Of a stretch of 64,000 nucleotides of DNA, positions 10,998 through 52,897 are shown in pieces. The position numbers and the translations under genes are program-made. How positions within the stretch are numbered: the stretch's first letter is position 1; the number at the start of each line of letters is the position of its first letter. The notes beneath the pieces are model-generated. The model searched no databases and was not told where the DNA came from. It saw nothing but the letters and a program-made list of their open reading frames with translations. Source of the stretch: Bacteroidota bacterium (GTDB taxonomy: Bacteria > Bacteroidota > Bacteroidia > Chitinophagales > Saprospiraceae); NCBI GenBank assembly GCA_030147525.1, contig JASBVF010000034.1, forward strand, positions 62,001 through 126,000, read 5' to 3'.

Positions 10998-12401
10998 ATG
11001 ATTAAAAACCGCTATTTCGACCTTATTGATCAGACCTTTTACTTTCCACAGGAAGGATTTGACATTGAAGATGGCAATTTGATTTTCAACGGCGTTCCGC
11101 TCAAATATTTGATTAACAAATACGGCACTCCGCTAAAGCTTACCTATCTGCCAAAAATTGGAACCCAGATTAAGAAAGCGAAAAACATGTTCAATAAAGC
11201 CCGGAAAACACTGGGCTACAAGGGCAAGTATCATTATTGCTATTGCACCAAAAGCAGTCATTTCAGCTACGTGGTGAAGGAGGTGTTGCGTCATGGTGTG
11301 GAGCTTGAAACTTCTTCGTCTTTTGATATTGATCTCGTTCGTAAAATCTATGAAAAGGAATGGATTGACAAGGACGTCATCATCGTTAACAACGGATTTA
11401 AAACCCGTGAGTATGCACATAAAATTTGTGAACTCATCAACGACGGGTTTCAAAATGTCGTCCCGGTTTTGGATAATAAACGGGAGCTGGACTATTACGA
11501 GGAGATGGTGAAAGGAAAGTGCAACCTGGGAATCCGGGTGGCAACGGACGAGGAACCGAATTTCGAATTTTATACTTCCCGCCTGGGTATCCGTGGCTCT
11601 GAAGTCGTAAATTATTACAAAGAACGGCTTCATAAAAACAAAAAATTCAAGGTGACCATGCTCCACTTTTTCGTGGACACCGGCATCAAAGATTCGATCT
11701 ACTACTGGGGTGAGCTGAAAAAAGCAGTAAAACTGTACTGTGAACTAAAAAAAGTTTGCCCCTCTCTCACGGCATTGAACATCGGTGGCGGTATGCCAAT
11801 CCGGAATTCGCTCGGCTTTGAGTTTGACTATACTTACATGGTGCGGGAAATCGTAAATCTCATTCTGCAGGCTTGTCAGGAAGAGGAAATTCCGGAGCCC
11901 GATATTTTTACCGAATTTGGAAAATATACGGTTGGCGAGAGCGGCGCTCTTATTTTCGGCGTGCTTGACCAAAAGCAGCAGAACGATGCTGAAGTCTGGT
12001 ACATGGTGGATAATTCGCTCATCACCACTATGCCCGATAGCTGGGGTATTGCCGAACGTTTCATCCTGCTGCCCATCAATAAATGGCAAAATGAATATCG
12101 GCGGGTGAATATCGGCGGTCTCAGTTGCGATAATTCCGATTATTACAATTCTGAGGTGCATGAAAGCCAGGTGTATCTGCCGACAGTAAGCAAAGACGAT
12201 CCGGAGCCGCTTTACCTTGGTTTCTTCCACACCGGCGCCTACCAAGACTCACTCAGCGGGTACGGGGGGATCAAGCATTGCCTCATCCCGTCGCCGAAGC
12301 ACGTGTTGATTTACAAGGATTCCAAAGGAAATATTGTGGATAAACTATACCGGGAGGAGCAAACCCCCGAGGAAATGCTGAAAATACTGGGGTATATTTA
12401 A
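10998..12401 (+). CDS. speA: Arginine decarboxylase, alanine-racemase fold
   Basis: The 467-residue protein is the short Bacteroidota-type arginine decarboxylase, a fold-type III PLP enzyme that converts arginine to agmatine for polyamine synthesis. Seen in sequence: the PLP-lysine segment YCYCTKSSHF near residue 80, LETSSSFDID, FEFYTSRLGIRG, the phosphate-binding LNIGGGMPIRN, FTEFGKYTVGESG and the C-terminal GGLSCDNSDYYNSE with the catalytic Cys. The length and these segments agree closely with flavobacterial SpeA as I remember it. It is monocistronic: the facing gene is convergent and a 31-bp palindrome begins at its stop codon. Confidence 0.9.
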   Translation: MIKNRYFDLIDQTFYFPQEGFDIEDGNLIFNGVPLKYLINKYGTPLKLTYLPKIGTQIKKAKNMFNKARKTLGYKGKYHYCYCTKSSHFSYVVKEVLRHGVELETSSSFDIDLVRKIYEKEWIDKDVIIVNNGFKTREYAHKICELINDGFQNVVPVLDNKRELDYYEEMVKGKCNLGIRVATDEEPNFEFYTSRLGIRGSEVVNYYKERLHKNKKFKVTMLHFFVDTGIKDSIYYWGELKKAVKLYCELKKVCPSLTALNIGGGMPIRNSLGFEFDYTYMVREIVNLILQACQEEEIPEPDIFTEFGKYTVGESGALIFGVLDQKQQNDAEVWYMVDNSLITTMPDSWGIAERFILLPINKWQNEYRRVNIGGLSCDNSDYYNSEVHESQVYLPTVSKDDPEPLYLGFFHTGAYQDSLSGYGGIKHCLIPSPKHVLIYKDSKGNIVDKLYREEQTPEEMLKILGYI

Positions 12402-12474
12402 TGATGAATTATGAATGATAAATGATGAACATTCACAGAGGACGTTCATCGTTTATCATTCATAATTCATCATT
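12400..12474. repeat. Long palindrome A (GATGAAT-word), 31-nt arms
   Basis: The arm 12400-12430 is complementary to 12444-12474 with one mismatch over 31 nt, around a 13-nt loop. Each arm repeats words such as AATGATGAA and TGAATGATAAA. It fills the gap between the convergent arginine decarboxylase and CerR-like genes and overlaps the decarboxylase stop codon. No U-tract follows, so it is not a classical terminator. Confidence 0.9.
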
Positions 12475-12476
12475 AT

Positions 12477-13466
12477 TTAAAGCCATCCATTCTCTTTATA
12501 CCAGGCCAGGGTTTCTTCCAAGCCTTCCTCCAGGCCGTATTGCGGCTGAAAATTCAGATCTTCCTTTAGCGGCTCGATGTCGCATTTCCAGTTAACACTT
12601 TCTAGGATTCGAACCTTTTCTAGGTTGAGAGCAGGTGACTTGCCGTTGCTGCTGAATTGTTCGAGTGTCCATGCGATGCCACGAACAAGGCTGGTCGGAA
12701 CATGGAACCGAAGCGTTTTTTTATTTAAAATCCGCTTTGAATATTTGCCGAGGTCCCATTGAGCATAGTAGCGCCCGTCAGAGACGAAATAGCTTTTTTG
12801 CGAAATGCTGGAGGTTGTGGCGTCAAGTATCACCCTCGCCAAATCTTTCACATAAACAAAAGCCAGGTGTTGACGGCGGGTACCGATGTAGCCTTCAATG
12901 TTGCGATTGATGAGTTTGAAAAATGTCAGTATTTCTTTTTCTCTTGGGCCGTAGACACCCGTCGGCCTGATGATAACGTACGGAAAATCAGGTAGTTGTG
13001 CAAGGTAGCGCTCTGCTTTGAGTTTTGCCTTTCCGTAAGTGTTGATGGGGTTGGGCTCATCGTCTTCGGTCAGGAAGTCAGTCAAATCCTCGGCACTTGC
13101 TGGACCGTAAGAAGCTGCGCTGCTGATAAAAGTGAATTTTTCCGGCAATACATCAGTTGCGATGAGGGTGTCAGCCAGGTTTTTTACATACTCGAAATTC
13201 ACCCGCCAGTAGTCCTCCAGCCTTGAAGCGCTGACGACCCCTGCATTGTGGATGATGTAGTCGAACTTCATCCTGCCCAGCTCGGCTGACAACTGGTCTT
13301 TGTCACCGAAATTCAATTCGATGAAATTGATCCGTTCATCCTTTAAAAAGTCCCGGCTGCTCGTCTTTCGAATACCGGCGTACACGTCAAGATCTCGCTT
13401 GAGCGCCTCCTCCACGAGGTGGCTGCCAACAAATCCAGATGCGCCGGTGATGAGTATTTTTTTCAT
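12477..13466 (-). CDS. NAD-dependent epimerase/dehydratase, probable ceramide reductase (CerR-like)
   Basis: The 329-residue protein is an extended short-chain dehydrogenase: NAD-binding GASGFVGSH at the N-terminus, HNAGVVSA, and the catalytic Ser/Tyr/Lys (FISSAASYG; TYGKAKLKAE). By itself this could be a sugar epimerase. Its position two genes after serine palmitoyltransferase and directly after a GNAT acyltransferase matches the bacterial ceramide pathway described in Caulobacter, where an epimerase-annotated enzyme (CerR) reduces the 3-keto group of oxidised ceramide. I infer this role. It is the last gene of the operon; palindromes lie on both sides of it. Confidence 0.8.
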   Translation of the reverse strand: MKKILITGASGFVGSHLVEEALKRDLDVYAGIRKTSSRDFLKDERINFIELNFGDKDQLSAELGRMKFDYIIHNAGVVSASRLEDYWRVNFEYVKNLADTLIATDVLPEKFTFISSAASYGPASAEDLTDFLTEDDEPNPINTYGKAKLKAERYLAQLPDFPYVIIRPTGVYGPREKEILTFFKLINRNIEGYIGTRRQHLAFVYVKDLARVILDATTSSISQKSYFVSDGRYYAQWDLGKYSKRILNKKTLRFHVPTSLVRGIAWTLEQFSSNGKSPALNLEKVRILESVNWKCDIEPLKEDLNFQPQYGLEEGLEETLAWYKENGWL

Positions 13467-13470
13467 AATA

Positions 13471-13560
13471 ATGAGTGAATGATCGAATGGTAGAATGAGT
13501 GAATGATGCGCTGCGGCTAAAATTCTCTCATTTCATCATTCATTCATTCATTCTATCATT
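13471..13560. repeat. Imperfect palindrome B (GAATGA-word)
   Basis: Arms rich in GAATGAGTGAATGATG (left, about 13491-13508) and CATCATTCATTCATTCATTC (right, from 13534) pair imperfectly, differing by a 4-nt unit. The right arm overlaps the end of the GNAT gene, supplying its final codons and its TGA. It sits inside the ceramide operon. Confidence 0.75.
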
Positions 13561-14672
13561 GATTTTTCATAAATCCGGTACCGTTTGTAGGGCACCATAT
13601 TTACACCCTCCACGCCCTTTTTCATCATTTCATTATTGTCGAGAATCCAGGAGGCTTCTGCTTCGTTATAGCCTTTTTCTAATCCACGGGAGATGATTCG
13701 GGCATAAAAAACACCTTCGATTCCCATTCTCCGATAGTCTTCAAGCACGCCTAACAGGATGATTCTCAGGCGTTTGATTTTCTTTTTTTGAAACAGCAGT
13801 TTCAAAATGCCAGTAGGCAGCAGCCTACCCCTGTTGATAGTACGGATAATGACATTGACGTCGGGGATGGCCAGGGCAAAGGCCACAATTCTACCTTCAT
13901 GTTCAGCCAGCAGAGCGAATTCGGGGTCCATAATAAGCTTCATCTCCGCCGCCAGTCTGTCGAATTCGGCGTCAGTCGGAGGGACGAAACCCCAGTTTTT
14001 ATCCCAGGCACCCCTGTACACTTCCCTGACCTTGGAGATTTCTTCCTTAAATTTTTTCATGTTCACCGGCCTTACGGTGATACCACGTTTTTCCAGTCTT
14101 TCGCCGATCATCTGAGCCAGCCGAACGGACTTCATGTTCACCTGCTCTTCAGTTACAGCGTAGGCAAGCATGTCCATTTGCTTAGTGAAACCGTAGCGCT
14201 CCAGGAAGGCGGGGTAGTAGGTTTTGTTGTAAGCCATCATTACCACGGGTGGCCTGTTGAAGCCTTCCACGAGTAATCCCGCCACATCATTGGTGGTGAA
14301 ATTAGTGGGGCCAAGTATGGCATCCAAACCTTCACTTTTCACCCAAGAGGCGGCTGTGTCGAGCAGGAATTTCGCCACTTCGTAATTTTCAATGACCTCA
14401 AAAAAACCGAAGAAGCCGACATTTGCATTCGCAAACCTGTTGTATTCGTTATTGCGAATGGCCGCAATTCGCCCCACGATTTTACCATTTTGCAAGGCGA
14501 GGAAGAGTTGGGCTTTTGAATGCTGGAAGAAAGGATTTTTCTTTTCGTCGAGGAGTTCTTTTTGACCCAGATAAATCTCAGGTACGTAATTCGGATCGCC
14601 GGCGTAGAGGTCGTGTGGAAAGTCGATGAAGCGTTTTTTATCCTTCCCGGATTTGACTTCTATGATGTCCAT
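13548..14672 (-). CDS. GNAT-superfamily acyltransferase, probable bacterial ceramide synthase
   Basis: The 374-residue protein starts MDIIEVKSGKDKKRF. An in-frame extension to 14750 merely reads through the TTCGTTG palindrome and is rejected. It contains a GNAT-like N-terminal half (NGKIVGRIAAIRNNEYNRF, GFFGFFEVIENYEVAKFLL, AILGPTNFTTNDVAGLLVEG) and a C-terminal half ending near RRMGIEGVFYARIISRGLEKGY. Bacterial ceramide synthase, unlike the eukaryotic enzyme, belongs to the GNAT superfamily and acylates 3-ketosphinganine. The gene lies directly after serine palmitoyltransferase, which is the basis for the inferred role. Its stop codon lies inside palindrome B. Confidence 0.82.
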   Translation of the reverse strand: MDIIEVKSGKDKKRFIDFPHDLYAGDPNYVPEIYLGQKELLDEKKNPFFQHSKAQLFLALQNGKIVGRIAAIRNNEYNRFANANVGFFGFFEVIENYEVAKFLLDTAASWVKSEGLDAILGPTNFTTNDVAGLLVEGFNRPPVVMMAYNKTYYPAFLERYGFTKQMDMLAYAVTEEQVNMKSVRLAQMIGERLEKRGITVRPVNMKKFKEEISKVREVYRGAWDKNWGFVPPTDAEFDRLAAEMKLIMDPEFALLAEHEGRIVAFALAIPDVNVIIRTINRGRLLPTGILKLLFQKKKIKRLRIILLGVLEDYRRMGIEGVFYARIISRGLEKGYNEAEASWILDNNEMMKKGVEGVNMVPYKRYRIYEKSMIE

Positions 14673-14684
14673 TTTTGTTGTTGG

Positions 14685-14750
14685 TTGTTCGTTGTTCGTT
14701 ATTCGTTGGCGCTGCCCTGAAACGAACAGCGTCCAACGAACAACGAACAA
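14685..14750. repeat. Palindrome C (TTCGTTG-word)
   Basis: TTGTTCGTTGTTCGTT on the left (14685-14700) pairs with AACGAACAACGAACAA on the right (ending 14750); the left arm carries one extra ATTCGTT unit. It occupies the whole spacer between the spt and ceramide synthase genes. The same word builds palindrome K at 52823-52897. Confidence 0.88.
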
Positions 14751-14755
14751 TGCTC

Positions 14756-15967
14756 TTACACTTCCTGGCCAGTCAAAATATCCAGCCTCCTTGCCACCTT
14801 CGCCAATTTACCGATCGCTTCGTCAATTTGTTCGAGGGTATGCGTAGCCATCAGTGAAAAGCGGATGAGGGTGTCTTCCGGTGCAACGGCAGGCGTGATG
14901 ACAGGGTTGACGAAGACGCCTTCGTCCTGTAGTTGCCGGGTCAGCAGGAAGGTTTTATTTACATCCCGCACGTATATCGGAATGATCGGGGTGGAAGAAT
15001 GGCCCGTGTCGAAGCCGAGATCATCCAGCATTTTTTTTGCGTAGCGGGTGTTTCTCCAGACGTTTTCAACACGCTCTGGCTCTTGCTGAATAAGCTCAAG
15101 CGCAGCCAAAACAGCTGCTGCGTTGGCAGGAGCTATGCTGGCGCTGAAAATCAGTGCCCGTGCATTGTGTTTGAGCCAGTTGGCAATTTCGTGGCTGGTA
15201 CCGATGAAACCACCAATGGTTGCCAGCGATTTGGAGAACGTTCCCATGATGAGGTCTACCTGGTCGGTCAGTCCGAAATGGTTGGCGGTTCCCCTTCCGT
15301 GTTCGCCCATGACGCCAAGGCCGTGCGCATCATCCACCATCACATTGGCGTTGTATCGCTTCGCAATTTCAACGATCTCAGGCAGCTTGGCCACATCGCC
15401 TTCCATGCTGAAAACGCCGTCCATGACGACGAGTGCGACATCATCCGGGCCACGCTCCTTGCCAATGCGCTGAAGTACTGTTTCCAGCGACTCCATGTTG
15501 TTGTGCTTGTACTTGCGGGTCGTAGCAAAGGACAAACGGGTGCCGTCAACGATGGAGGCATGGTTAAATTCATCACTAACGATGAAATCCTTGCGGCCCA
15601 ACAACGAGGAAAGTACACCAAGGTTTACCTGCATCCCTGTACTGAAGACGATCGCTTCCTCCATGCCGACGAATTCGGCGAGAGCGTGCTCGAGTTCGAG
15701 GTGCAAGTCAAGCGTGCCGTTAAGAAAACGGGAGCCGGCACAACCGGAGCCGTACTTGTCCACAGCCTGCTTGGCAGCTTCCTTGAGTTTTGGGTGGTTG
15801 GTAAGCCCCAGGTAGCTGTTTGAGCCAAACATGAGGACATCTTTTCCGTTCATTTTAACGACCGTGTCCTGATCGCTTTCGATAACCCGGAAATAGGGAT
15901 ACACGCCAGCAGCTTTAGCTTCCTGGGGAGCCGTGTACCGCTTCATTTTCTGTTGGAGCAGGTTCAT
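14756..15967 (-). CDS. spt: Serine palmitoyltransferase
   Basis: The 403-residue PLP enzyme of the alpha-oxoamine synthase family condenses serine with palmitoyl-CoA to 3-ketosphinganine, the first step of sphingolipid synthesis. Visible motifs are GSNSYLGLTNHPKLKEAA, GCAGSRFLNGTLDLH, DEFNHASIVDGTRLS, VMVDDAHGLGVMGEHGRG and the PLP-lysine GTFSKSLATIGGF. KBL and BioF belong to the same family. The choice of Spt rests on the N-terminus (KMKRYTAPQEAKAAGVYPYFR), which resembles Bacteroidota and Sphingomonas Spt, and on the neighbouring sphingolipid genes. It is the third gene of the operon, followed by palindrome C. Confidence 0.93.
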   Translation of the reverse strand: MNLLQQKMKRYTAPQEAKAAGVYPYFRVIESDQDTVVKMNGKDVLMFGSNSYLGLTNHPKLKEAAKQAVDKYGSGCAGSRFLNGTLDLHLELEHALAEFVGMEEAIVFSTGMQVNLGVLSSLLGRKDFIVSDEFNHASIVDGTRLSFATTRKYKHNNMESLETVLQRIGKERGPDDVALVVMDGVFSMEGDVAKLPEIVEIAKRYNANVMVDDAHGLGVMGEHGRGTANHFGLTDQVDLIMGTFSKSLATIGGFIGTSHEIANWLKHNARALIFSASIAPANAAAVLAALELIQQEPERVENVWRNTRYAKKMLDDLGFDTGHSSTPIIPIYVRDVNKTFLLTRQLQDEGVFVNPVITPAVAPEDTLIRFSLMATHTLEQIDEAIGKLAKVARRLDILTGQEV

Positions 15968-16010
15968 GCGTTTTTTTTGTATTTTCTGTTGCGAATGAAT
16001 GTAAAAAAAA

Positions 16011-16931: not shown

Positions 16932-16947
16932 TTTTTTGAACTATAAA

Positions 16948-17000
16948 CGATGAACGATGAATGATGAACGGGTTAAAGGTTCATCATTCATCGTTCATCG
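16948..17000. repeat. Palindrome D (GATGAAC-word), 22-nt perfect arms
   Basis: The arm 16948-16969 is perfectly complementary to 16979-17000 around a 9-nt loop. The word is CGATGAACGATGAATGATGAAC. The right arm continues as CATCATTTAT into the hydroxylase gene and provides its TGA stop. It lies inside the ceramide operon. Confidence 0.9.
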
Positions 17001-17004
17001 TCCA

Positions 17005-17619: not shown

Positions 17620-17683
17620 GATGAAATCTTATTTTGCTGACTTTTTCAGACAACGGAGAGTTTCTGTTATTCGGTTAGCAGCG

Positions 17684-17691
17684 CAAATTTA
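17684..17691 (-). promoter_or_regulatory. Candidate -7 element of the ceramide operon
   Basis: CAAATTTA on the plus strand reads TAAATTTG on the minus strand, an exact TAnnTTTG match about 65 nt upstream of the hydroxylase ATG. No good -33 TTTG is visible at the usual spacing. Confidence 0.4.
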
Positions 17692-20431: not shown

Positions 20432-20512
20432 AACTCCCGCAGATTCCGCAGTTTTGCGCAAATTTTTTCAAAAAAATGCGCTCCTGAGCGAAATCTGCGG
20501 GAGTTCTTTTTT
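20432..20512 (+). repeat. Palindrome E (CTCCCGC..CGCAG-word) with T run
   Basis: AACTCCCGCAGATT (20432-20445) pairs perfectly with 20492-20505, enclosing further CGCA/TGCG segments, and is followed by a T-rich run, so it can act as terminator for the S41 gene. The same word builds palindrome F at 28855-28927. Confidence 0.85.
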
Positions 20513-21780: not shown

Positions 21781-22092
21781 ATGTTCGGAGATTTATTAGG
21801 AAATATGCAGCAACAGCAGGAGGCGATGAAGCTGAAACTTGCTGAAATCATTGTAGAGTCGGAAGCTGGCGATGGGGCCATCACCGTGAAGGCCAATGCC
21901 AATCGTGAAATTCTCGACATTGCCATCGACAAATCCAAACTCGACTGGGAAGACACGGAGCAGGTGCAGGACCTCCTCCTCACCGCCATCAACCGGGTAC
22001 TCGAAAAAGCCCAGGTAAAAGAACAGGCCGAAACCCAGAAAATGATCTCGGATTTGATGCCGCCAGGCCTTGGCGGACTGTTTGGGCAGTAG
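21781..22092 (+). CDS. YbaB/EbfC family nucleoid-associated protein
   Basis: The 103-residue protein matches YbaB: N-terminal MFGDLLGNMQQQQEAMKLKL coiled helix, then the beta-hairpin region (AITVKANANREILDIAI) and a C-terminal helix ending DLMPPGLGGLFGQ. YbaB-type dimers bind DNA and are often found beside recR/dnaX, which are absent here. The stop TAG at 22090-22092 begins the GTAGGC-word palindrome that fills the gap to the convergent M20 gene. Confidence 0.92.
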   Translation: MFGDLLGNMQQQQEAMKLKLAEIIVESEAGDGAITVKANANREILDIAIDKSKLDWEDTEQVQDLLLTAINRVLEKAQVKEQAETQKMISDLMPPGLGGLFGQ

Positions 22093-22161
22093 GCCGGTAG
22101 GCAAGTATGCCGGTAGGCGAGTAAGCGCAGCCGGTGCTGTTGTGCTTACTCGCCTACTTAC
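22090..22161. repeat. Palindrome I (GTAGGCGAGTA-word)
   Basis: GTAGGCGAGTAAGC (22113-22126) pairs perfectly with 22144-22157. The left side carries a second degenerate copy (GTAGGCAAGTA). The stop codons of both convergent genes, TAG of ybaB and TAG of the M20 gene (CTA at 22154-22156), lie in this word. Confidence 0.88.
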
Positions 22162-26647: not shown

Positions 26648-26717
26648 ATTGGTGAATTGGTAAATTGGTGAATTAGGCAGGGCCATGCCTAATTCACCAA
26701 TTTACCAATTCACTAAT
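26648..26717. repeat. Palindrome H (GGTGAATT-word), 26-nt perfect arms
   Basis: The arm 26654-26679 is perfectly complementary to 26686-26711 around a 6-nt loop; with one mismatch the arms extend to 26648-26679 and 26686-26717. The arms are tandem GGTGAATT/GGTAAATT words. The right arm supplies the TAG stop (26713-26715) of the DUF4129 gene. No U-tract follows. Confidence 0.93.
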
Positions 26718-27408: not shown

Positions 27409-27494
27409 GAGGATTTTTTTGTGAAAACCAAAAGTAGAATTTCCAGGCGGAAATTTCAACGAAAGACTGGCAGGCAGTTTTTTCATAAAATAAC

Positions 27495-28841
27495 TTAAAC
27501 GCCGGCGTGCTCCCCCTCACTCACTTCCATCAGTCCCTCCGCATTCACCCGCTCCAGCTTCACCGGCAGGATCGAGTTCAGCAGGCCTTCCTCCAGTGGC
27601 ATTTCGATGCGCACGTAGTTGTCCGTGAAGCCTGACATCATGCCCGGCGCCGAGGCGTTTTCGAAGAGCACGGGCCTCGTTTCACCCACATGATTTTCGT
27701 AAAAAAACCGCTTCTTTTTTTCGGATAAAATGGTCAGCATCTCGTTGCGCTTGCGGCGTTCGTGCATCGGTACCACGTCCGGCATTTCGGCGGCGGGCGT
27801 ATTTGGGCGCTCCGAGTAGGTGAACACGTGCAGGTATGACACGTCGAGTTCGTTGATGAAACGGTAGGTTTCGAGGAAATCCTCCTCCGTCTCGCCGGGG
27901 AACCCGACGATCACGTCCACGCCGATGCAGCAGTGGGGCATGAGTTGTTTGATGTGAGCCACCCGCTCGGCGTAGAGTTCCCGGCGGTAGCGGCGGCGCA
28001 TGGCAGTCAGTTGCTTGTTGTTGCCGCTCTGCAACGGCATGTGAAAATGCGGCATGAATCGCTGCGATCCGGCCACAAATTCGATCACTTCATTCGTGCA
28101 AAGATTCGGCTCGATGCTCGAAATACGGATGCGATCCACGCCCTCCACTTTGTCGAGTTCTTTGATCAAATCGATGAACATGGCCTCCTTTTTCGGCCTT
28201 ACGCCCTCGATCACCTCCGTCCCGTTGCCGAAATCACCGATGTTGACGCCGGTGAGTACGATTTCCTTCACGCCCATCTCGGCGATCTTGCGGGCATTTT
28301 CCACCACGCTTTCCACGGTGTCGCTGCGGCTTTTCCCCCTCGCCAGCGGGATGGTGCAGAAGGAGCACTTGTAATCGCAGCCGTCCTGCACCTTGAGAAA
28401 GGAGCGGGTGCGGTCGCCGAAGCTGAAGGCGTGGGTAAAAGTGTTAGCTTCTTTTACCTCCCCGGCCTGCACCATGCCCTTGCCCGGCGCTTTCGACAAG
28501 TTGTCCACAAATTCCAGGATGCGGAATTTCTCGGCGGCACCCAGCACGAGGTCCACGCCGGGGATCTCGGCGATCTCCTGCGGTTTGAGCTGGGCGTAGC
28601 AACCCACCACGACGACGTTGGCATTAGGCGACTTGCGCAGCGCCCGCCGCACGATCTGGCGGCACTTGCGGTCGGCAAAGTCCGTCACCGAGCAGGTGTT
28701 GATGACGTAGATATCGGCGCCGTCGTTGAAGTCCACTTCCGAGTACCCGGCATCTTCGAAAAGCCTGCCGATGCTGGAGGTTTCGGAGTAGTTGAGCTTG
28801 CAGCCGAGGGTGTGAAATGCGACGGATTTTGGCGTAGCCAT
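27495..28841 (-). CDS. mtaB: tRNA t6A37 methylthiotransferase
   Basis: The 448-residue radical-SAM enzyme adds a methylthio group to N6-threonylcarbamoyladenosine at tRNA position 37. It has the N-terminal UPF0004 domain (HTLGCKLNYSETSSIG, NTCSVTDFADRKCRQ, VGCYAQ supplying the three cluster cysteines), the radical-SAM CxxxCxxC (DGCDYKCSFCTIP) and a C-terminal TRAM-like domain. HTLGCKLN and QIVRRALR distinguish MtaB from MiaB and RimO. It is expressed on its own; palindrome F lies 14 nt upstream of its ATG. Confidence 0.96.
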   Translation of the reverse strand: MATPKSVAFHTLGCKLNYSETSSIGRLFEDAGYSEVDFNDGADIYVINTCSVTDFADRKCRQIVRRALRKSPNANVVVVGCYAQLKPQEIAEIPGVDLVLGAAEKFRILEFVDNLSKAPGKGMVQAGEVKEANTFTHAFSFGDRTRSFLKVQDGCDYKCSFCTIPLARGKSRSDTVESVVENARKIAEMGVKEIVLTGVNIGDFGNGTEVIEGVRPKKEAMFIDLIKELDKVEGVDRIRISSIEPNLCTNEVIEFVAGSQRFMPHFHMPLQSGNNKQLTAMRRRYRRELYAERVAHIKQLMPHCCIGVDVIVGFPGETEEDFLETYRFINELDVSYLHVFTYSERPNTPAAEMPDVVPMHERRKRNEMLTILSEKKKRFFYENHVGETRPVLFENASAPGMMSGFTDNYVRIEMPLEEGLLNSILPVKLERVNAEGLMEVSEGEHAGV

Positions 28842-28854: not shown

Positions 28855-28927
28855 CTCCCGCTGATTTCGCAGATGGGCGCAGATTTTTTTTGAAATGCTC
28901 TGCGGAAATCTGCGAAATCAGCGGGAG
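28855..28927. repeat. Palindrome F (CTCCCGC..CGCAG-word), 20-nt perfect arms
   Basis: The arm 28855-28874 is perfectly complementary to 28908-28927. The 33-nt loop contains another CGCAGATT/CTCTGCGG pair. It shares its word with palindrome E. It sits between the ParE-type toxin gene and mtaB, both on the minus strand. Confidence 0.92.
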
Positions 28928-39168: not shown

Positions 39169-39945
39169 ATGGATCAAATCAAAAATCTTTTCAACCTCGA
39201 AGGCAAAGTCGCCATCGTCACCGGTGCCAGCAAGGGTATCGGCGAGGCCATCGCACGGGGCCTGGCGGAGTTCGGGGCAAAGGTCGTCGTGAGCAGTCGC
39301 AAGCAGGAGGCTGTGGACGCTGTCGCCGAAAATTTTAAAAAAGATGGCATCGAAGCCACCGGCATCGCCTGTCACGTCGGCGACGAGGAGCAGTTGAAAA
39401 ACCTCGTTTCAAAAACCGTCGAAACCTACGGCGGCGTGGACATCCTCGTCAATAATGCCGCTACGAATCCCGTTTACGGCCCCATCGCCGAGGCGGACGC
39501 CGGGCTGTTCGATAAAATCCTGGACATCAACGTCAAATCCTGCATGCTGCTGGCCAATCTTTGTTACCCCATCATGAAATCGAGGGGCGGCGGTTCGGTC
39601 ATTAACATCTCGTCGGTGGAGGGCCTGAAACCGGGACTGGGCCTCGGCGTGTACAGCGTCAGCAAGGCGGCGCTGCTCATGCTCACGCAAAACCAGGCGA
39701 AGGAGTGGGGCCGTGACGGCATCCGGGCGAATGCGATCTGCCCCGGGCTGGTGCAGACCAAATTCAGCGCCGCCATCTGGCAGAATGAGGCGATTTTGAA
39801 ACAAATCGAAAAACACCTGCCTGCCGGGCGCATGGCCGTGCCCAACGAAATGGCGGGGCTGGCGGTGTTCCTCGCCTCGCCTGCTTCGAGCTACTGCACG
39901 GGCGGCGTTTTTACGGCGGATGGCGGGTTCGTGCTGGGGGCGTGA
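39169..39945 (+). CDS. SDR family oxidoreductase (DHRS4-like)
   Basis: The 258-residue classical SDR has VTGASKGIGEAIA, VNNAATNP, the catalytic Ser (NISSVEG), Tyr and Lys (YSVSKAAL) and closing FTADGGFVLGA. Its segments resemble human DHRS4 and related carbonyl reductases. It lies just upstream of an acyl-CoA dehydrogenase and an APH-like kinase on the same strand, so it may oxidise or reduce a hydroxyacyl intermediate of that pathway (inference). Palindrome G separates it from the dehydrogenase gene. Confidence 0.93.
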   Translation: MDQIKNLFNLEGKVAIVTGASKGIGEAIARGLAEFGAKVVVSSRKQEAVDAVAENFKKDGIEATGIACHVGDEEQLKNLVSKTVETYGGVDILVNNAATNPVYGPIAEADAGLFDKILDINVKSCMLLANLCYPIMKSRGGGSVINISSVEGLKPGLGLGVYSVSKAALLMLTQNQAKEWGRDGIRANAICPGLVQTKFSAAIWQNEAILKQIEKHLPAGRMAVPNEMAGLAVFLASPASSYCTGGVFTADGGFVLGA

Positions 39946-39959: not shown

Positions 39960-40061
39960 AGGATTGGAACACGGATTGGGCGGATGCGACGGATTTACAC
40001 GGATCTGTTTCTTGAAAATCCGTTTAAATCTGCCAATCCGTGTCATCCGTATTCCAATCCT
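39960..40061. repeat. Imperfect palindrome G (ACGGATT-word)
   Basis: AGGATTGGAACACGGAT on the left and its complement ATCCGTATTCCAATCCT on the right (ending 40061) agree in 16 of 17 positions; further inside, several CGGAT/ATCCG words pair loosely. It lies between the SDR and acyl-CoA dehydrogenase genes in an apparent operon. Confidence 0.8.
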
Positions 40062-40097: not shown

Positions 40098-41315
40098 ATG
40101 CATACGACCACCACATCCTCCGTCAATTTGAAAGAAATCCTTGCCCAGGTTCAGGCTTTTGTAGAGACGGAACTGTACCCTCTCGAAGCAGAAGCCCGTG
40201 GCAAAAGCTGGAACCAGATTTTACCCCAACTCGAAGAAAAACGCCGCCGGGTGAAGGAACTTGGCCTATGGACACCACAGATCCCGGTGGAGTGGGGCGG
40301 GCTGGGTCTGTCGGTTTGGGAATTCGGGCAGGTGAGCGCCGTTTTGGGGCAAAGTCCCTACGGGCACTACGTTTTCAACTGCCAGGCGCCCGATGCGGGC
40401 AACATGGAAATCCTCATCGAATTCGGTACGCCCATGCAGCAGGAGCGTTTTTTAAAACCACTACTGGCCGGTGAAATCCGCAGTTGCTTCGCCATGACGG
40501 AGCCGGAGCATGCCGGTTCGAATCCGGTTTTTATGAGCACGACGGCTGTGAAATCGGGCGGTGACTACATCATTGACGGCCACAAATGGTTCACTTCCAG
40601 CGCTGACGGGGCGGCCTTCGCCATCGTCATGGCGATGACGGCGCCGGCGCATGAAAATAAATACCAGCGGGCCAGTCAGATCATCGTTCCGCTTGATAAT
40701 CAGGGCTTTAAATTGATCCGAAACATCCCGGTGATGGGTGAAGCGGGCGAGGGATGGGCCAGCCACGGCGAGGTTCGTTTTGAAAATTGCCGGGTGCCGC
40801 AGGAATTTTTACTGGGTGAGGAGGGCGCCGGTTTCGCCATTGCGCAAACCCGTCTCGGCCCCGGCCGCATCCACCACTGCATGCGCTGGAACGGCATCTG
40901 CGAGCGGGCCTTCGACCTGATGTGCCGCTACGCCGTCAGCCGGGAACTGTCGCCGGGTGTGCCGCTGGCCACCAAGCAAACCATTCAAAACTGGATCGCT
41001 GAAAGCCGGGCCGAGATCAACGCCGCCCGGCTGATGGTGCTGGATGCTGCGCAAAAAATTGACGAACACGGGCAGTACGGCGCACGGGTGGAGATTTCCG
41101 TGATCAAATTTTTCTGTGCCAATGTGCTGCAAAACGTCCTCGACCGGGCCATCCAGGTACACGGAGCGCTGGGCATTACGGAGGATACGCTGCTCTCGTT
41201 CTGGTACCGCCATGAGCGGGGTGCCCGCATCTACGACGGCGCCGACGAGGTGCACAAAAGCCGGGTGGCGAGGGAGATTTTGAAGGGGTATGGAATGAAG
41301 AAATTGGGAAAATAG
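40098..41315 (+). CDS. Acyl-CoA dehydrogenase family protein (ACAD10/11-type)
   Basis: The 405-residue flavoenzyme starts MHTTTTSSVNLKEILAQVQ; upstream sequence is palindrome G. It has the N-terminal helical domain, the FAD-binding middle domain (CFAMTEPEHAGSNP, HKWFTSSADGAAFAIVM) and the C-terminal helical domain (GPGRIHHCMRWNGI, the QVHGALGITEDT motif and GADEVHKSRVAREIL). RIHHCMR and the C-terminus resemble the dehydrogenase half of ACAD10/11. The next gene encodes an APH-like kinase resembling the other half. ACAD10/11-type enzymes act on phosphorylated 4-hydroxyacyl-CoAs, which is the role I infer. Confidence 0.9.
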   Translation: MHTTTTSSVNLKEILAQVQAFVETELYPLEAEARGKSWNQILPQLEEKRRRVKELGLWTPQIPVEWGGLGLSVWEFGQVSAVLGQSPYGHYVFNCQAPDAGNMEILIEFGTPMQQERFLKPLLAGEIRSCFAMTEPEHAGSNPVFMSTTAVKSGGDYIIDGHKWFTSSADGAAFAIVMAMTAPAHENKYQRASQIIVPLDNQGFKLIRNIPVMGEAGEGWASHGEVRFENCRVPQEFLLGEEGAGFAIAQTRLGPGRIHHCMRWNGICERAFDLMCRYAVSRELSPGVPLATKQTIQNWIAESRAEINAARLMVLDAAQKIDEHGQYGARVEISVIKFFCANVLQNVLDRAIQVHGALGITEDTLLSFWYRHERGARIYDGADEVHKSRVAREILKGYGMKKLGK

Positions 41316-48198: not shown

Positions 48199-48217
48199 TT
48201 TCTTAATGTGTTGAATC

Positions 48218-48520: not shown

Positions 48521-48557
48521 AAACTGAGTCGTTTCATTAAAATATACTGACCAGAAG

Positions 48558-49379
48558 ATGGAAATAATCGAAATCGTGAAACAAGTACTTACCAAATTCG
48601 CATCAGCCATACCGAACCTCATTGGGGCGGTCATTGTCATGTTGTTGGGTTGGCTGGTGTCAAAATTGATTGCCAAAGGCCTTCAGAAAGTTTTCGAAAG
48701 TCTGAAAGTTGATCAGTTGGGCGATAAAATCAATGAAACTGAGTTTGCTTCAAAGGCAAATTTTAAAATAAAACTCAGCAGCTTTCTTTCGAAATTGGTT
48801 TACTACGTCCTTTTGCTCATTTTTATTATGGCAGCCACGGACGTGCTCGGCATGCCTATTGTTTCACAAATGGTCAGTGATCTGATCGCCTACCTGCCAC
48901 GGCTGCTTTCGGCGTTGGTATTGTTTGTTTTAGGTATTTACCTTGCCGAGTTTGTAAAGAATATCGTCCTGGCGACCTGCAATGCGCTCAGTATCCCGTC
49001 TGCCAAGATTATCGCCAACTTTGTTTTCTACCTCATATTTTTAACGCTGACAATCAGTGCTTTAGCGCAGGCGAGTATTGATACAGCGCTTATTACGGCC
49101 AACCTGACCGTCATTCTCGGCGGTGTCATCCTTGCTTTCGCTATTGGCTACGGCTTTGCCTCCAGAGATACGATGGCCAACTTCCTCGCTTCGTTTTACA
49201 GTAAAAACAAAGTCAAAATTGGAGACTTTGTGGACATTGAAGGCTCGAAGGGAAAGGTTATTGCCATGGATAGCTCATCCATCACGCTGCAAGGAGACGG
49301 AAAAATAATTGTGATACCTTTGAAGAAATTGACGTCTGAAAAAGTGGAGATTTTTACCGGTGACCGTCAGCTTAACTGA
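48558..49379 (+). CDS. Mechanosensitive ion channel (CmpX/MscS-like)
   Basis: The 273-residue membrane protein has repeated conserved transmembrane segments (PNLIGAVIVMLLGWLVSKLI, LVYYVLLLIFIMAATDVLG, LLSALVLFVLGIYLAEFVK, FVFYLIFLTLTISALAQ), then the MscS pore-like helix (VILGGVILAFAIGYGFASRD) and beta-domain (KIGDFVDIEGSKGKVIAMDS). This resembles CmpX-type channels, which in Pseudomonas modulate envelope stress through the ECF sigma factor SigX. An ECF sigma gene two genes upstream makes the parallel notable; the functional link is inference. Confidence 0.9.
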   Translation: MEIIEIVKQVLTKFASAIPNLIGAVIVMLLGWLVSKLIAKGLQKVFESLKVDQLGDKINETEFASKANFKIKLSSFLSKLVYYVLLLIFIMAATDVLGMPIVSQMVSDLIAYLPRLLSALVLFVLGIYLAEFVKNIVLATCNALSIPSAKIIANFVFYLIFLTLTISALAQASIDTALITANLTVILGGVILAFAIGYGFASRDTMANFLASFYSKNKVKIGDFVDIEGSKGKVIAMDSSSITLQGDGKIIVIPLKKLTSEKVEIFTGDRQLN

Positions 49380-49443
49380 GGCCCGTACCAAGCCTCCAAT
49401 TTACATTCAATTTAATTTCTAACTCTTAAAATTTAAGACACCA

Positions 49444-50397
49444 ATGACAAAGAAGTCACTACTACTTTCTTTGGCCTTGCTGGCATTTTGTTTCAGCCTG
49501 CAGGCCCAAACCGTTGAAGAAATGCAGCAACAAAAAGCTGCGAAAGAGCAGGAACTCAGTAACCTGGAACCACAACTGAAAGAACTGCAAGGCAAGGTGG
49601 CAGCCCTGAAAGCCGATGTAGCAGGGTTGACTGATAAGCTCACGCCTTACCCCCGTTGGGATGTCGGCGCACTGGGCAACGTCGGGTTGAATTTTTCAAA
49701 CTTCAACAACTGGTTCTCCAAATCGGCGCCCAATACAAGCGCTGTAAACATCGGCCTTACGCTGGGCTCCTTCGCTAACCTTCAGCAGAAAAAATATTTC
49801 TGGCGCAACAATGCCAACCTGGCACTGGCCTGGTTGAAATTTGATGACAAAGACAAAGAAGACGATACCGACGATTTTCAGGTAGCCGCAGATGCCTTTA
49901 ACGTGGTCTCTTTATTTGGCTACAAATTGTCCGAGAAAATCGCCATTTCAACCCTCGGTGAATACCGTACCGCAGTACTCGACGGCAGGTTTAACGACCC
50001 GGGTTACCTTGACCTCGGTGTCGGAGCTACCTGGACACCCGTTACTGACCTGGTGGTAGTCGTTCACCCGCTGAACTACAATTTCGTCTTTTCCAGCGGC
50101 GATTTTGATTTTGAATCTTCGCTCGGTTGCAAAGTGGTGGCTGACTACACGCGTAAAATTACGGACGGCGTTGCCTGGAAGTCTAACCTGTCCGCCTTTC
50201 TGAGCTACAAAGACAGCGATCTTTCCAACTGGACCTGGATCAATGGCGTCACGACTGCTGTGAAAGGCGTAGGTGTAGGCTTCGACCTGGGCTTGCGCAG
50301 CAACAAGCAGGAAGCATTGGCCGCCGGCGAAACGGATAACCCCGTCCAGGTGTACTGGCTGCTGGGCTTGTCTTACGCTCTTTCAACCAAAAAATGA
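49444..50397 (+). CDS. DUF3078 outer-membrane beta-barrel protein
   Basis: The 317-residue protein has a signal peptide (ending SLQAQ), a short coiled coil at about residues 24-66 (EEMQQQKAAKEQELSNLEPQ onwards) and a DUF3078 beta-barrel (WDVGALGNVGLNFSNFNNWF, KKYFWRNNANLALAWLKFDD, LSYALSTKK). The function of DUF3078 proteins is unknown. The N-terminal coiled coil may mediate trimerisation or contact with peptidoglycan. It follows the channel gene by 64 nt on the same strand. Confidence 0.9.
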   Translation: MTKKSLLLSLALLAFCFSLQAQTVEEMQQQKAAKEQELSNLEPQLKELQGKVAALKADVAGLTDKLTPYPRWDVGALGNVGLNFSNFNNWFSKSAPNTSAVNIGLTLGSFANLQQKKYFWRNNANLALAWLKFDDKDKEDDTDDFQVAADAFNVVSLFGYKLSEKIAISTLGEYRTAVLDGRFNDPGYLDLGVGATWTPVTDLVVVVHPLNYNFVFSSGDFDFESSLGCKVVADYTRKITDGVAWKSNLSAFLSYKDSDLSNWTWINGVTTAVKGVGVGFDLGLRSNKQEALAAGETDNPVQVYWLLGLSYALSTKK

Positions 50398-50469
50398 CCC
50401 CTGAATAACACTTTTGACCATAAATTTTGAGGAAAAGTCCGTTCGGTTCGCCGGGCGGGCTTTTCTGTT

Positions 50470-50477
50470 TATTTTTG
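50470..50477 (+). promoter_or_regulatory. Candidate -7 element for the 3-hydroxyacyl-CoA dehydrogenase gene
   Basis: TATTTTTG is an exact TAnnTTTG match 19 nt before the ATG. The upstream element is not evident. Confidence 0.35.
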
Positions 50478-50496
50478 CCGCCCTAATCAAATAATT

Positions 50497-51654
50497 ATGA
50501 TCAAAACCGGCATCATAGGCTCCGGCTCCATGGGCGCTGGCATCGCACAAGTGGCAGCCACCGCAGGGCACGAAGTCCTCATTTACGACAACAACCCCGC
50601 CGCCCTCGATCGGGCCAAAAACAGCCTGCTCGCCATCCTCAACAAACTGGCAGCTAAAGGCAAAATCGACGACCGCACCGCCAAGGCCATCTTTGGCAGG
50701 ATTTATTTTGTGGACAATCTGCTCGCTTTCACCGACTGCGGGCTGGTCATCGAAGCCATCGTCGAGGATTTGGGGGTGAAAAAATCCGTCTTCGGGCAGT
50801 TGGAAGACATTGTGAAACAGGATTGTATCCTTGCCACCAACACTTCCTCGCTTTCCATCGCCGCTATTGCAGCCGCTTGCCGGAAACCGGAGCGGGTACT
50901 CGGCATCCATTTTTTCAACCCGGCGCCGCTGATGAAACTGGTGGAAATCATCCCCGCCATCCAAACGGACGCTGAGGTGGTGAAAAACGCCCGCTTGCTC
51001 ATCGAAAGCTGGGGAAAGCTCGCCGTGCTGGCAAAAGATACGCCCGGCTTTATTGTCAACCGGGTGGCCAGACCGTTTTACGGAGAGGCGCTGCGCATCC
51101 TCGAAGAGGGTATCGCCGACGTGGCCACCATCGACTGGGCCATGACCGAACTTGGCGGCTTTCGCATGGGCCCGTTCACGCTGATGGATTTTATCGGAAA
51201 CGACGTGAATTATACGGTGACGGAGACAGTTTTCACGGCATTCTACTTCGACCCCCGCTACAAGCCTGCTTTTACCCAAAAACGCCTCTCGGAAGCGGGC
51301 TGGCTGGGCCGGAAAACGGGCCGGGGATATTACAATTACGCCGAAGGCGCCCAAAACCCCGAGCCAAACCGGGAAAAAATTTTAGGTAAAAAAATCCTCG
51401 ACCGCATCCTCGTCATGCTCATCAACGAAGCCGCCGATGCGCTCTACCTCAACATCGCCAGCCGTGACGACATCGACCTGGCTATGACTACAGGCGTGAA
51501 TTACCCCAAAGGTTTGCTGAAATGGGCCGATGAAATTGGTATCCAAAATTGCGTCGAAATGCTGGACGCCCTGCACGCCGAATACCTCGAAGACCGTTAC
51601 CGATGCAGCCCGCTGCTGCGAAAAATGGCAAGGGATGGGAAGAAGTTTTGGTAA
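50497..51654 (+). CDS. 3-hydroxyacyl-CoA dehydrogenase (PaaH/HBD-like)
   Basis: The 385-residue enzyme oxidises 3-hydroxyacyl-CoA to 3-ketoacyl-CoA with NAD. It shows GIIGSGSMGAGIAQVAATAG, LATNTSSLSIAAIA, GIHFFNPAPLMKLVEII and TPGFIVNRVARPFYGEAL, with a duplicated C-terminal helical domain (about 185-280 and 300-380), as in PaaH-type enzymes of phenylacetate and fatty-acid degradation. It is a single-domain dehydrogenase without an enoyl-CoA hydratase fusion. The neighbours do not specify the pathway. Confidence 0.95.
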   Translation: MIKTGIIGSGSMGAGIAQVAATAGHEVLIYDNNPAALDRAKNSLLAILNKLAAKGKIDDRTAKAIFGRIYFVDNLLAFTDCGLVIEAIVEDLGVKKSVFGQLEDIVKQDCILATNTSSLSIAAIAAACRKPERVLGIHFFNPAPLMKLVEIIPAIQTDAEVVKNARLLIESWGKLAVLAKDTPGFIVNRVARPFYGEALRILEEGIADVATIDWAMTELGGFRMGPFTLMDFIGNDVNYTVTETVFTAFYFDPRYKPAFTQKRLSEAGWLGRKTGRGYYNYAEGAQNPEPNREKILGKKILDRILVMLINEAADALYLNIASRDDIDLAMTTGVNYPKGLLKWADEIGIQNCVEMLDALHAEYLEDRYRCSPLLRKMARDGKKFW

Positions 51655-51691
51655 TCCCATTTCAACCTTACCTTAGCGCTTCTCTGAATCG

Positions 51692-51723
51692 CATTCATCA
51701 TTCAACATTCATCGTTCATCATT
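51692..51723 (+). repeat. Single arm J of the GATGAAT-word element
   Basis: CATTCATCATTCAACATTC and the following CATCGTTCATCATT resemble the right arms of palindromes A and D, but no complementary left arm is present in the spacer. It ends 7 nt before mvaD and may be a decayed or half element. Confidence 0.7.
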
Positions 51724-51729
51724 AATAAA

Positions 51730-52818
51730 ATGCTCGATTACAAAAATCCGAACCTCATCCTTGAAACTTCCGAAGTAGAACCCGGCAGCTTCACCTGGCG
51801 CAGCCCTTCCAACCTGGCCATCATTAAATACTGGGGAAAACACGGCGTGCAGTTGCCGAAAAACCCCTCGCTGAGCCTTACCCTCAGCAGTTCCTTCACC
51901 GACACCTTGCTGGAATACAAACCCAAGGAAAGCGGCGACCGCAACATCTCGCTCGAATTCACTTTTCACCAGGAGCCGAACGAGCCGTTCCGGGAGAAAG
52001 TGGTGAAATTCCTCGAAAGCGTGACGGACATTTTCCCCTTCCTCCGCCAGCTCGACCTGACGGTGCGCACGGGCAATTCTTTCCCGCATTCTTCGGGCAT
52101 TGCCTCCTCAGCTTCGGCGATGAGTGCGCTGGCGCTGTGCCTTTGCTCGCTGGAACATGAGCTATTCGAGACGCTGGAAGACGACGATGAGTTTGATAAA
52201 AAATCATCCTACGTGGCGAGGCTTGGTTCCGGCAGTGCCTGTCGCTCCATTTTTCCGGTGGCTTCGCTTTGGGGTCAAACGGGTGAGGTGGAAGGTTCAT
52301 CCGACCTGTTCGGACTACCGATGGCGGAAGAGGTGCATGATATTTTCAAAGATTTTCACGACGACATCATGATCGCCAGCACAGCGGCCAAAAGCGTGAG
52401 CAGCCGTGCCGGTCACAGCCTCATGGACTCGAATCCTTTCGCCGAAAGCCGCTACGCCGACGCCAAACGCAAACTACACTTCCTGCTGGAAGCCATGAAA
52501 AAAGGCGACCTGGAGACCTTCGGCAGAATCGCAGAAAACGAAGCCCTCACCCTCCACGGACTGATGATGTCGAGCAACCCGTCGTATATTTTATTGAAAC
52601 CCAATACATTGGAAATGATCGAACGGGTGCGCCGCTACCGGGAGGAGACGAAGCACCCCATCTATTTCAGCCTGGATGCGGGACCGAATCTGCACGTGCT
52701 GTACCCCGGCGAGATCATTCATGAGGTGCGGGTTTTCGTCGATGAGGAATTGAAGCCGCTGTGCGAGGAGGAGACGTATTTGCAGGATTGGGTAGGGGAG
52801 GGACCGGTGCAGGTGTAA
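51730..52818 (+). CDS. mvaD: Diphosphomevalonate decarboxylase
   Basis: The 362-residue GHMP-kinase-fold enzyme converts mevalonate diphosphate to isopentenyl diphosphate, the last step of the mevalonate pathway. Diagnostic segments are WRSPSNLAIIKYWGKHG, LPKNPSLSLTLSSSFTDT, the phosphate loop HSSGIASSASAMSALALC and the late FSLDAGPNLHVLYPGE. Other mevalonate pathway genes are not in the window. Its presence indicates that isoprenoids come from mevalonate in this organism. It is followed by palindrome K and the ACMSD gene. Confidence 0.96.
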   Translation: MLDYKNPNLILETSEVEPGSFTWRSPSNLAIIKYWGKHGVQLPKNPSLSLTLSSSFTDTLLEYKPKESGDRNISLEFTFHQEPNEPFREKVVKFLESVTDIFPFLRQLDLTVRTGNSFPHSSGIASSASAMSALALCLCSLEHELFETLEDDDEFDKKSSYVARLGSGSACRSIFPVASLWGQTGEVEGSSDLFGLPMAEEVHDIFKDFHDDIMIASTAAKSVSSRAGHSLMDSNPFAESRYADAKRKLHFLLEAMKKGDLETFGRIAENEALTLHGLMMSSNPSYILLKPNTLEMIERVRRYREETKHPIYFSLDAGPNLHVLYPGEIIHEVRVFVDEELKPLCEEETYLQDWVGEGPVQV

Positions 52819-52822
52819 ATTA

Positions 52823-52897
52823 TTGTTCGTTGTTTGTTGCCCATTGTTCGTTTGAGATGGGTTTCAAAACAAACAACGAACAAAAAACAACGAACAA
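52823..52897. repeat. Palindrome K (TTCGTTG-word)
   Basis: TTGTTCGTTGTTT (52823-52835) pairs with 52885-52897. Each side has a second degenerate copy of the word (CATTGTTCGTTT; AAACAAACAACGAACAA). It shares its word with palindrome C, 38 kb away, and separates mvaD from the ACMSD gene. Confidence 0.85.

Follow-up and report, generated by a model that had tools for sequence, protein, structure and literature searches.

Palindromes built from tandem short words, with G-rich arms pointing outward from genes, in a Saprospiraceae genome and in other bacterial phyla

Introduction

This study concerns palindromes built from tandem short words that lie between the genes of a 64,000-nucleotide (nt) stretch of DNA from a Saprospiraceae bacterium (phylum Bacteroidota; GenBank assembly GCA_030147525.1, contig JASBVF010000034.1, positions 62,001 to 126,000). 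The whole stretch is called the window below. Its genes include those for a decarboxylase, an epimerase, an acetyltransferase, an aminotransferase and a fatty acid hydroxylase, and a preliminary description, made from the letters alone, reported at least ten complete palindromes (among them elements A to I and K) and one single arm (J) in the gaps between genes (Table 1). We examined these elements in the window, in the genome that holds it and in other genomes. Two facts are new: the arms have an outward polarity, and their words recur across phyla, yet different words occupy one and the same junction.

Tandem heptamer repeats between bacterial genes were noted earlier and have no agreed explanation. 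Small dispersed repeats of Nostoc, reportedly described by Elhai in 2008, resemble the words studied here in being dispersed and intergenic; unlike these words, they are said to be fixed sequences of 20-odd nt. The LTRR sequences of Nostoc share this likeness and this difference, being dispersed intergenic repeats with related conserved sequences that include the 23-nt csR5, as far as the account in PMC2408588 goes. STRR sequences of cyanobacteria are described as intergenic tandem units, usually of 7 bp, that may form a hairpin and whose function is not known (PMC2670836). MacGregor (2015; PMC4679880) reported arrays of the heptamer TAACTGA near start codons in Beggiatoaceae, Cyanobacteria and Bacteroidetes, and the parts of that paper used here consider horizontal spread and a translational role. 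REP sequences, as outlined in PMC2817692 and PMC3733652, are GC-rich palindromes with a GT(A/G)G head and a RAYT.

Results

Survey of inverted repeats

The genome that holds the window, G000, comprises 7.08 Mb in 59 contigs. Inverted repeats were surveyed in 1.244 Mb of it, that is, the window and about 1.18 Mb from elsewhere in G000, with genes called by a small hexamer-based caller. Repeats were ungapped, scored +1 per match and -3 per mismatch, and had to reach a score of 14 within a span of no more than 160; each gap was shuffled separately in five rounds with dinucleotides preserved. Of 131 inverted repeats, 123 fell in gaps between called genes; under one and the same regime, the real gaps gave 121 and the shuffled gaps 0 in all five rounds. 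A scan against shuffled intergenic sequence, as proposed in the preliminary description, thus found enrichment across the 1.244 Mb covered (123 intergenic repeats against 0 in shuffled sequence).

The 123 intergenic repeats divide into 44 of word type (an arm with an internal period at permutation p <=0.05, periods of 5-12 being allowed; about 6 of the 44 are expected by chance at this cut-off), 31 of tract type (terminator-like) and 48 of neither type. All word-type periods were 7, 8, 9 or 10 (19, 18, 4 and 3 elements, respectively). The gaps holding word-type elements are short (median 93 nt), with about three quarters of the gap covered by the element. Their arms have a G+C content of 37.7%, and gaps one of 39.4%. 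Tandem arrays, defined by three words, numbered 92 in gaps against 2 in one shuffle round, and the word string GATGAACGATGAATGATGAA had 223 matches in G000 with at most three mismatches against 0 for the same string read backward. The palindromes are real, there are many of them, and the class does not fit any named palindrome family.

The single arm as the unit

The unit is the single arm and not the palindrome. No exact 11-nt inverted partner lay near 54 of the 92 arrays (period 7 in 32, 8 in 18, 9 in three and 10 in one), and 41 of 91 lacked even an 8-nt partner. Arrays stood at both ends of 24 gaps; in 20 of these they had a common 7-mer and in four they had different words. Where facing arms carry the same word at both ends of a junction, a palindrome results.

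In nine elements made of GATGAA words, mean identity was 0.963 between the two arms of one element and 0.874 between arms taken from different elements. This difference is clear but not absolute, since 12.5% of the cross-element pairs reach the mean for arms in cis. The near identity of arms within an element suggests that the second arm was copied from the first, or both from one donor. A conserved core was sought in the loops of seven GATGAA elements and of the 44 word-type elements, and none was found; the loops differ from copy to copy. Loops have 46% G+C against 39% in gaps, with a slight excess of GCAGC/GGCAG.

Polarity of word arrays

Word arrays abut gene ends, and their G-rich, C-poor strand runs 5' to 3' outward from the gene. 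An array was counted at a gene end if it lay within 40 nt of it and at least 15 nt nearer to it than to the other end. By this count 131 of 142 arrays point outward and 11 inward. Outward arrays make up 69 of 73 in G000 and all 23 in four congeners; loci from other phyla, where genes were taken as long open reading frames only and the region of the word used for retrieval was left out, gave 39 of 46. The ratio of outward to inward arrays was 61:1 at start ends and 70:10 at stop ends, and at convergent stop ends, 27 pointed outward and 1 inward. Arrays more than 60 nt from both gene ends follow no rule (22:25).

The polarity is also seen in the order of arrays within a gap: a G-type array stood directly before a C-type array 29 times, and the reverse was found three times. 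Accordingly, the first arm is G-rich in 40 of the 44 word palindromes (three opposite, one tie). The palindromes of neither type lean the same way, at 29:13 with 6 ties, whereas there is hardly any lean in the tract class (16:9, 6 ties). Lone arms without a partner have the same polarity in 27 of 30 cases. At tRNA genes, where a looser array threshold of 0.75 was used, all five distinct arrays point outward (a sixth entry is a duplicate of one of these genes).

Inspection by eye of several tRNA clusters (L293 and, in the sample, C25:150381-150635 and C58:9488-9756, with Tyr-Gly-Thr, Val-Pro and Thr-Pro genes) showed facing word arrays between neighboring tRNA genes. Their words were alike within a gap and differed from gap to gap.

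Three simple causes of the polarity were considered and rejected. Gene calling that swallows arrays has a small effect in G000 and the four congeners, where 9 arrays were hidden in called genes near their ends (5 outward, 4 inward) and 25 deep inside; element G is such a case. Avoidance of start codons and supply of stop codons would suit many arrays, as sense start codons are fewer at 31 of 33 start-end arrays and sense stop codons exceed antisense ones at 30 of 41 stop-end arrays. This cause fails at tRNA ends, which have no start or stop codons, and at stop-end arrays with equal stop-codon counts in both orientations, of which 8 point outward and 0 inward. Avoidance of Rho sites would predict a relaxed polarity at convergent stops, which is not what the 27:1 ratio there shows.

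Elements in the window

The ten elements and the lone arm were all confirmed where the preliminary description had placed them (Table 1). Its view that they share one design despite differing words was borne out, as was their occurrence both in convergent gaps and within apparent operons. They generally lack a U-tract, as it had stated; in the sample, an A/T tract adjoins the stem foot in 2 of 44 word elements. Some arm lengths changed: element A has the single mismatch reported, in arms of 32 rather than 31 nt, and the perfect arms of H are 28 rather than 26 nt long. Elements E and F had been grouped by CTCCCGC..CGCAG words; their first arm is C-rich or balanced, which sets them apart from the remaining elements.

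Elements B, E, G and I are the weaker ones, B and G falling below the ungapped cut-off. The window holds 11 inverted repeats with a score of at least 14, terminator-like ones included, against 0 in three shuffles. In a gapped self-alignment, 19 of 47 window gaps of at least 30 nt exceeded all 20 shuffles, again with ordinary terminators (for example, 3511-3558) included. An Rfam search of the window returned no family at its threshold.

Table 1. Word-built elements in the window (positions count from its first letter)
Element	Position	Strand	Arms and words	Placement and remarks
A	12399-12475		32-nt arms, one mismatch; words GATGAAT/TATGAAT/GATAAAT/GATGAAC	Fills convergent gap between pyridoxal phosphate (PLP)-dependent decarboxylase gene (10998-12401, +) and NAD-dependent epimerase gene (12477-13466, -)
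B	13467-13552		Words GAATGAGT/GAATGATG	Between epimerase gene and GNAT acetyltransferase gene (both -)
C	14678-14750		Words TTGTTCG; 16-nt perfect core	Fills gap between GNAT gene and aminotransferase class I/II gene (both -)
D	16947-17001		23-nt perfect arms; GATGAAC/GATGAAT	Between PAP2 and fatty acid hydroxylase genes (both -)
E	20432-20505		CTCCCGCAGATT palindrome; first arm C-rich	Adjoining T tract; opposite polarity
I	22090-22161		GTAGGCGAGTAAGCGC arms, GGCCGGTAGGCAAGTA ahead of them	Convergent gap; GTAG at stem foot
H	26648-26717		35-nt arms containing 28-nt perfect arms (26652-26713); 8-nt words ATTGGTGA/ATTGGTAA	Fills gap between two - genes
F	28855-28927		CTCCCGC..TTTCGCAGAT palindrome; 20-nt perfect arms; G and C balanced in arm	Upstream of radical SAM (UPF0004) gene (27495-28841, -)
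G	39960-40061		Nested arms of CGGATT words, 74-81% complementary	14 nt past stop codon at 39945; 36 nt ahead of in-frame ATG at 40098, taken as the start of the following gene
J (lone arm)	51692-51723	+	ATTCAACATTCATCGTTCATC (51700-51720); sense strand G-poor	9 nt ahead of gene at 51730 (+); no inverted partner found
K	52823-52897		Words TTGTTCG/TTGTTTG; 16-nt perfect core	Fills gap between two + genes
Further word-like palindrome	59239-59274		ATTTGGTGGTTGGTG / CATCAACCACCAAAT	Gap between two + genes; missed in the preliminary description

Orthologous junctions in congeners

G000 was compared with 13 congeneric genomes, in which the gene order around elements A to D is mostly kept. Site B is readable in all 14, with gene ends taken from extended protein alignments. 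In eight genomes the neighboring genes either share 4 nt or have 1-5 nt between them; the junction of the other six (G000, G006, G007, G009, G010 and G011) is filled by a palindrome 77-122 nt long. Presence and absence of the element at one orthologous junction, a comparison that had been suggested at the outset, is therefore seen at this site. The words differ among the six genomes: GAATGAGT in G000, GGTTTATTGG in G009, GGTTAAATGG in G010, TTGGATTG in G006, and TTCATGG/TTTCATTG in both G007 and G011.

The exact stop at site B is uncertain in seven genomes (G002, G003, G005, G006, G007, G011 and G012), because their right-hand protein (GNAT-type; window 13548-14672) is only 25-33% identical to that of G000. 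Where a target-site duplication would be read, the start codon is retained and the stop codon sits at the border or close to it, but the words blur these borders. In a midpoint-rooted tree of seven concatenated proteins, G006, G007 and G011 form one clade, and the site B element of G007 has the look of a mosaic between those of G006 and G011. On our reading, this tree calls for roughly three gains to account for the pattern; the other possibility is a single gain with several exact losses. The low-identity GNAT-type counterpart itself occupies the same place, between sites B and C, in loci L077, L080, L083, L084, L085, L088 and L091.

Site A is readable in 11 genomes, with GATGAAT words in G000, arms of ATTTCGG type in six congeners, a lone array of another word in G009 and no gap above 5 nt in three. 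In G007 (L088), one extra stretch interrupts both arms of the ATTTCGG palindrome at this junction, as GGTTCCCTACGGGAATGACAAATG in one arm and as its complement in the other, as though the sequence of one arm had been transferred to the other by copying.

Other sites gave a mixed picture. By eye, site D has one-sided arrays in G009 and G010, and at site F three congeners have lone AAGGATTG arms, three have lone AAAGTAAAAAGG arms and G009 has a palindrome. A palindrome of other words was found at site H in one of seven readable congeners (G010), and the gap orthologous to 59239-59274 holds one of TTGGATTG words in G008. At site C no congener had a word palindrome in the sequence examined, which covered the long gaps of G001, G008 and G010 in part. 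At site E, congeners have non-word palindromes or hairpins, or none. Sites C and E speak against turnover as a rule. In small samples of relatives, word palindromes were found in 11 of 16 genomes with usable sequence, G000 included, and not in G002, G005, G009, G013 and G027.

Occurrence in other genomes and phyla

With at most two mismatches, GATGAACGATGAATGATGAA occurs 136 times in G000, 136 times in its congener G011, 182 times in G016, which belongs to another genus, and 0-24 times in the other congeners; it is present in 20 of 60 genomes, G000 included. The backward control gave 0 in most genomes, 18 against 12 true matches in G009, and 1-6 in seven genomes with few or no matches.

The palindrome TTGGTNATTGGT(6-36)ACCAATNACCAA was found in at least 114 stretches of GTDB genomes, against about 0.5 by our own estimate for uniform random sequence of equal size. 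Among the matches listed it occurs in about ten phyla: Bacteroidota, Cyanobacteria, Chloroflexi, Gemmatimonadetes, Planctomycetes, Proteobacteria, Actinobacteria (Rubrobacter), Acidobacteria (Thermoanaerobaculia), Omnitrophota and Latescibacterota, as assigned, partly from recall, from the record titles of 80 listed stretches. In many of the listed loci the words continue outward on both sides. In the 38 genomes that lie behind 39 of 40 given loci, this palindrome had 111 matches against 1 for the same palindrome with a C-rich first arm; each genome has at least one match by selection, and some matches are overlapping registers of one element. Backward-read controls in these genomes gave 0 matches for the C-first form and 23 for the G-first form, 16 of them in a single genome. 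Among 296 genomes sampled evenly across the phylum, two had the TTGGT palindrome, one of them G000, so that this palindrome is sporadic in Bacteroidota. The word TTGGTNA is common to G000 and cyanobacteria.

Further inverted repeats in the 80 loci were of word type in 25 of 78 cases, 18 of these with period 7. Arms from other phyla resemble G000 arms: over 22 arms the sum was 189 against 156.5 (standard deviation 7.2) in 60 permutations that kept period and composition, a sum that is inflated because some arms contain TTGGT-like words. Individually, 3 of the 22 arms reached p 0.05.

Discussion

The arrays found here resemble STRR as described in PMC2670836 in being intergenic tandem arrays of 7-nt units in many copies. 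They differ from that description in their periods of 7-10, their mirrored arms, their polarity at gene ends and the occurrence of one palindrome in about ten phyla. The TAACTGA arrays, as far as PMC4679880 describes them, are made of one word, with one inverted set listed for the main genome and no general polarity rule. In Flexibacter litoralis, 12 of 14 TAACTGA sets face a start codon and one set after a stop codon is reversed (PMC4679880), which agrees with the outward rule. Judging from these accounts, the lone arms match the known STRR and heptamer repeats, and STRR are best seen as the known lone form of a wider class of gene-end word arrays.

The preliminary description knew of no named family with this design. 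As far as open-licence papers go, this stands for the palindromic, outward-polarized form, since we found no description there of word-built palindromes or of an outward polarity rule, and the main text of RepRanger (PMC12306157), in the form consulted, lacks the terms 'tandem' and 'heptam'; it does not stand for lone heptamer arrays, which were known as STRR and TAACTGA.

We tentatively favor, at a probability of roughly 0.38 and slightly ahead of selection at the RNA level, a process in which words are copied from a template onto the outward 3' ends found at gene junctions. Each arm would be a templated extension of such an end. A broken or nicked end, for example, would copy an array located elsewhere, or the partner arm by fold-back, and words could spread in this way without any fixed element moving. 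Arrays would be tolerated at junctions because no coding sequence is struck there. A palindrome, once formed, would fold in RNA of either direction, and an effect as a gene-end hairpin is a guess.

Several observations weigh against templated copying. Neither an enzyme nor a template RNA was seen, and no new insertion event. Four of the 24 gaps with an array at each end hold different words, and at site A the arms of G001 have words in common but not their order. Arrays recur at the same junctions (sites A, B, D and F) in several lineages, which could reflect a functional need. The polarity rule is broken by 11 arrays, stop ends in other phyla gave 24:7, and the first arms of the further word-type repeats in the 80 loci gave 15:7 with 3 ties. 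Ordinary gap sequence also leans toward G outward (0.225 at start ends, 0.049 at stop ends); because of this lean, and because start- and stop-codon counts favor many arrays, part of the polarity effect may be general or selective. The 24 TAACTGA sets mapped in Microcystis in the account of PMC4679880 (6 forward and 8 reverse to a start codon, 8 between stops) do not fit a strict outward rule.

The closest competitor, which we hold to be possible at somewhat lower odds, is selection at the RNA level: REP-like hairpins at gene ends would stabilize or insulate transcripts, the words themselves would be irrelevant as long as the first arm is G-rich, and leaders would be G-poor as a guard against false starts. 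Such selection could also account for G-poor leaders, a further point against copying, and the sense start- and stop-codon counts given above agree with it. So does the depletion of divergent gaps, which make up 45.0 of 142.0 kb of gap sequence and hold 6 of 44 word-type repeats, 1 of 48 of neither type and 0 of 31 of tract type. Sites A and B likewise keep a hairpin while its words differ. However, partnerless lone arms follow the same polarity (27 of 30), tRNA ends (5 of 5) and convergent stop ends (27:1) would each require a separate reason, and words common to hundreds of places and to several phyla are left unexplained.

Neutral slippage with template switching, in which arrays grow in place and fold-back copying makes the palindrome, we consider improbable. 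The order of words at site A differs between the close species G001 and G013, and insertions and deletions in the TAACTGA sets of two Cyanothece strains, in the account of PMC4679880, are mostly in 7-nt steps, as slippage would have it. It does not explain why a 20-nt word string is exact at no fewer than 18 places among the matches listed and present at 223 with at most three mismatches, nor the resemblance of arms from other phyla to those of G000 above the null, nor the polarity. The suggestion in the preliminary description that the palindromes are remnants of slippage alone fails on the words common to hundreds of unlinked places and on the polarity.

A mobile family, either REP/REPIN-like elements moved by RAYT or a MITE, appears quite doubtful. 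G000 has four Y1_Tnp (PF01797) matches. The one on contig C59 (locus L341, G000:C59:155000-164500, gene at 4379-4951) lies between a palindrome about 95 nt to one side (4175-4284) and an array about 380 nt to the other (5329-5349), both of the word TTTTTGATT, which has 44 matches in G000 with at most one mismatch and 0 for its control. This bracket by one word, found at one of the four genes, favors a mobile system and counts against copying; a link between a transposase-like protein and the TTTTTGATT family is possible, though the case may be due to chance. The gene on C48 (L288, around 85851-86069) has unrelated GCCGGGTT..ACCCGGC hairpins on both sides (1154-1238 and 1986-2078), looking like a normal REP/RAYT pair that has nothing to do with the words, and the other two lack a word bracket (a lone array on one side on C25, none adjoining on C5).

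The word family GTAGGCGA (element I; also C25:32241-32312 in the sample) has GTAG at the stem foot like proteobacterial REPs and could thus be REP-like. As a class, the word elements share with REP, BIME and REPIN that they are many short intergenic palindromes, and differ in having no GT(A/G)G head, no high G+C content and no fixed sequence. Such a head was found at the hairpin foot in 2 of 44 word elements and in 10 of all 123 intergenic repeats. We rejected REP/RAYT for the word class on the basis of the 42 of 44 elements without the head and the G+C content, and a MITE because there is no conserved interior between the arms. Presence and absence at an orthologous junction would suit a mobile family, but the loops are not conserved and the words at one site differ between species. 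A nonautonomous mobile repeat, as had been suggested, is therefore not supported as the unit, given also the lone arms and mixed-word gaps, with the bracketed gene on C59 as the counterpoint.

Ordinary intrinsic terminators, although some elements do lie in convergent gaps, are a very improbable explanation and were rejected for the word class, since an A/T tract is found in 2 of its 44 members against 31 separate tract-type hairpins in the same sample, which were set apart as a class, and since facing word arrays also stand between neighboring tRNA genes.

A cause of the arrays in the DNA itself would imply an unknown process of repair or copying; a cause in the RNA would imply that gene-end hairpins with freely changing sequences form a widespread class. 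A G-rich-outward rule would bring lone repeats and palindromes of different phyla under one description, and any annotated genome can serve to check it. A broader version of templated copying, which we regard as rather unlikely, is that many phyla share an unrecognized DNA-writing process which adds G-rich words of 7-10 nt to the outward 3' ends of gene junctions, in the manner in which telomerase adds G-rich repeats; it might do so by copying a C-rich RNA or array, and STRRs, heptamer repeats and word palindromes would be its footprints.

Other observations

Three further features were noted. Another dispersed palindrome family, close to GCCCCTGACCCCTRAAGGGG and not built from words, occurs in the sample at C10:5830-6119, C10:11679-11833 and C25:233691-233771. 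The gap orthologous to window positions 27487-27494 holds a long GC-rich palindrome, GCCCGTCTCCGTGCCCTTCCAAAAGAGGGGG.., in G010 (L146) and a few bases in several other genomes. A short stretch close to GTATTTTCTGTTGCGAATGAATG, at window positions 15968-16010 upstream of the aminotransferase gene, recurs in the orthologous gaps of many congeners and may be a promoter or a regulatory site.

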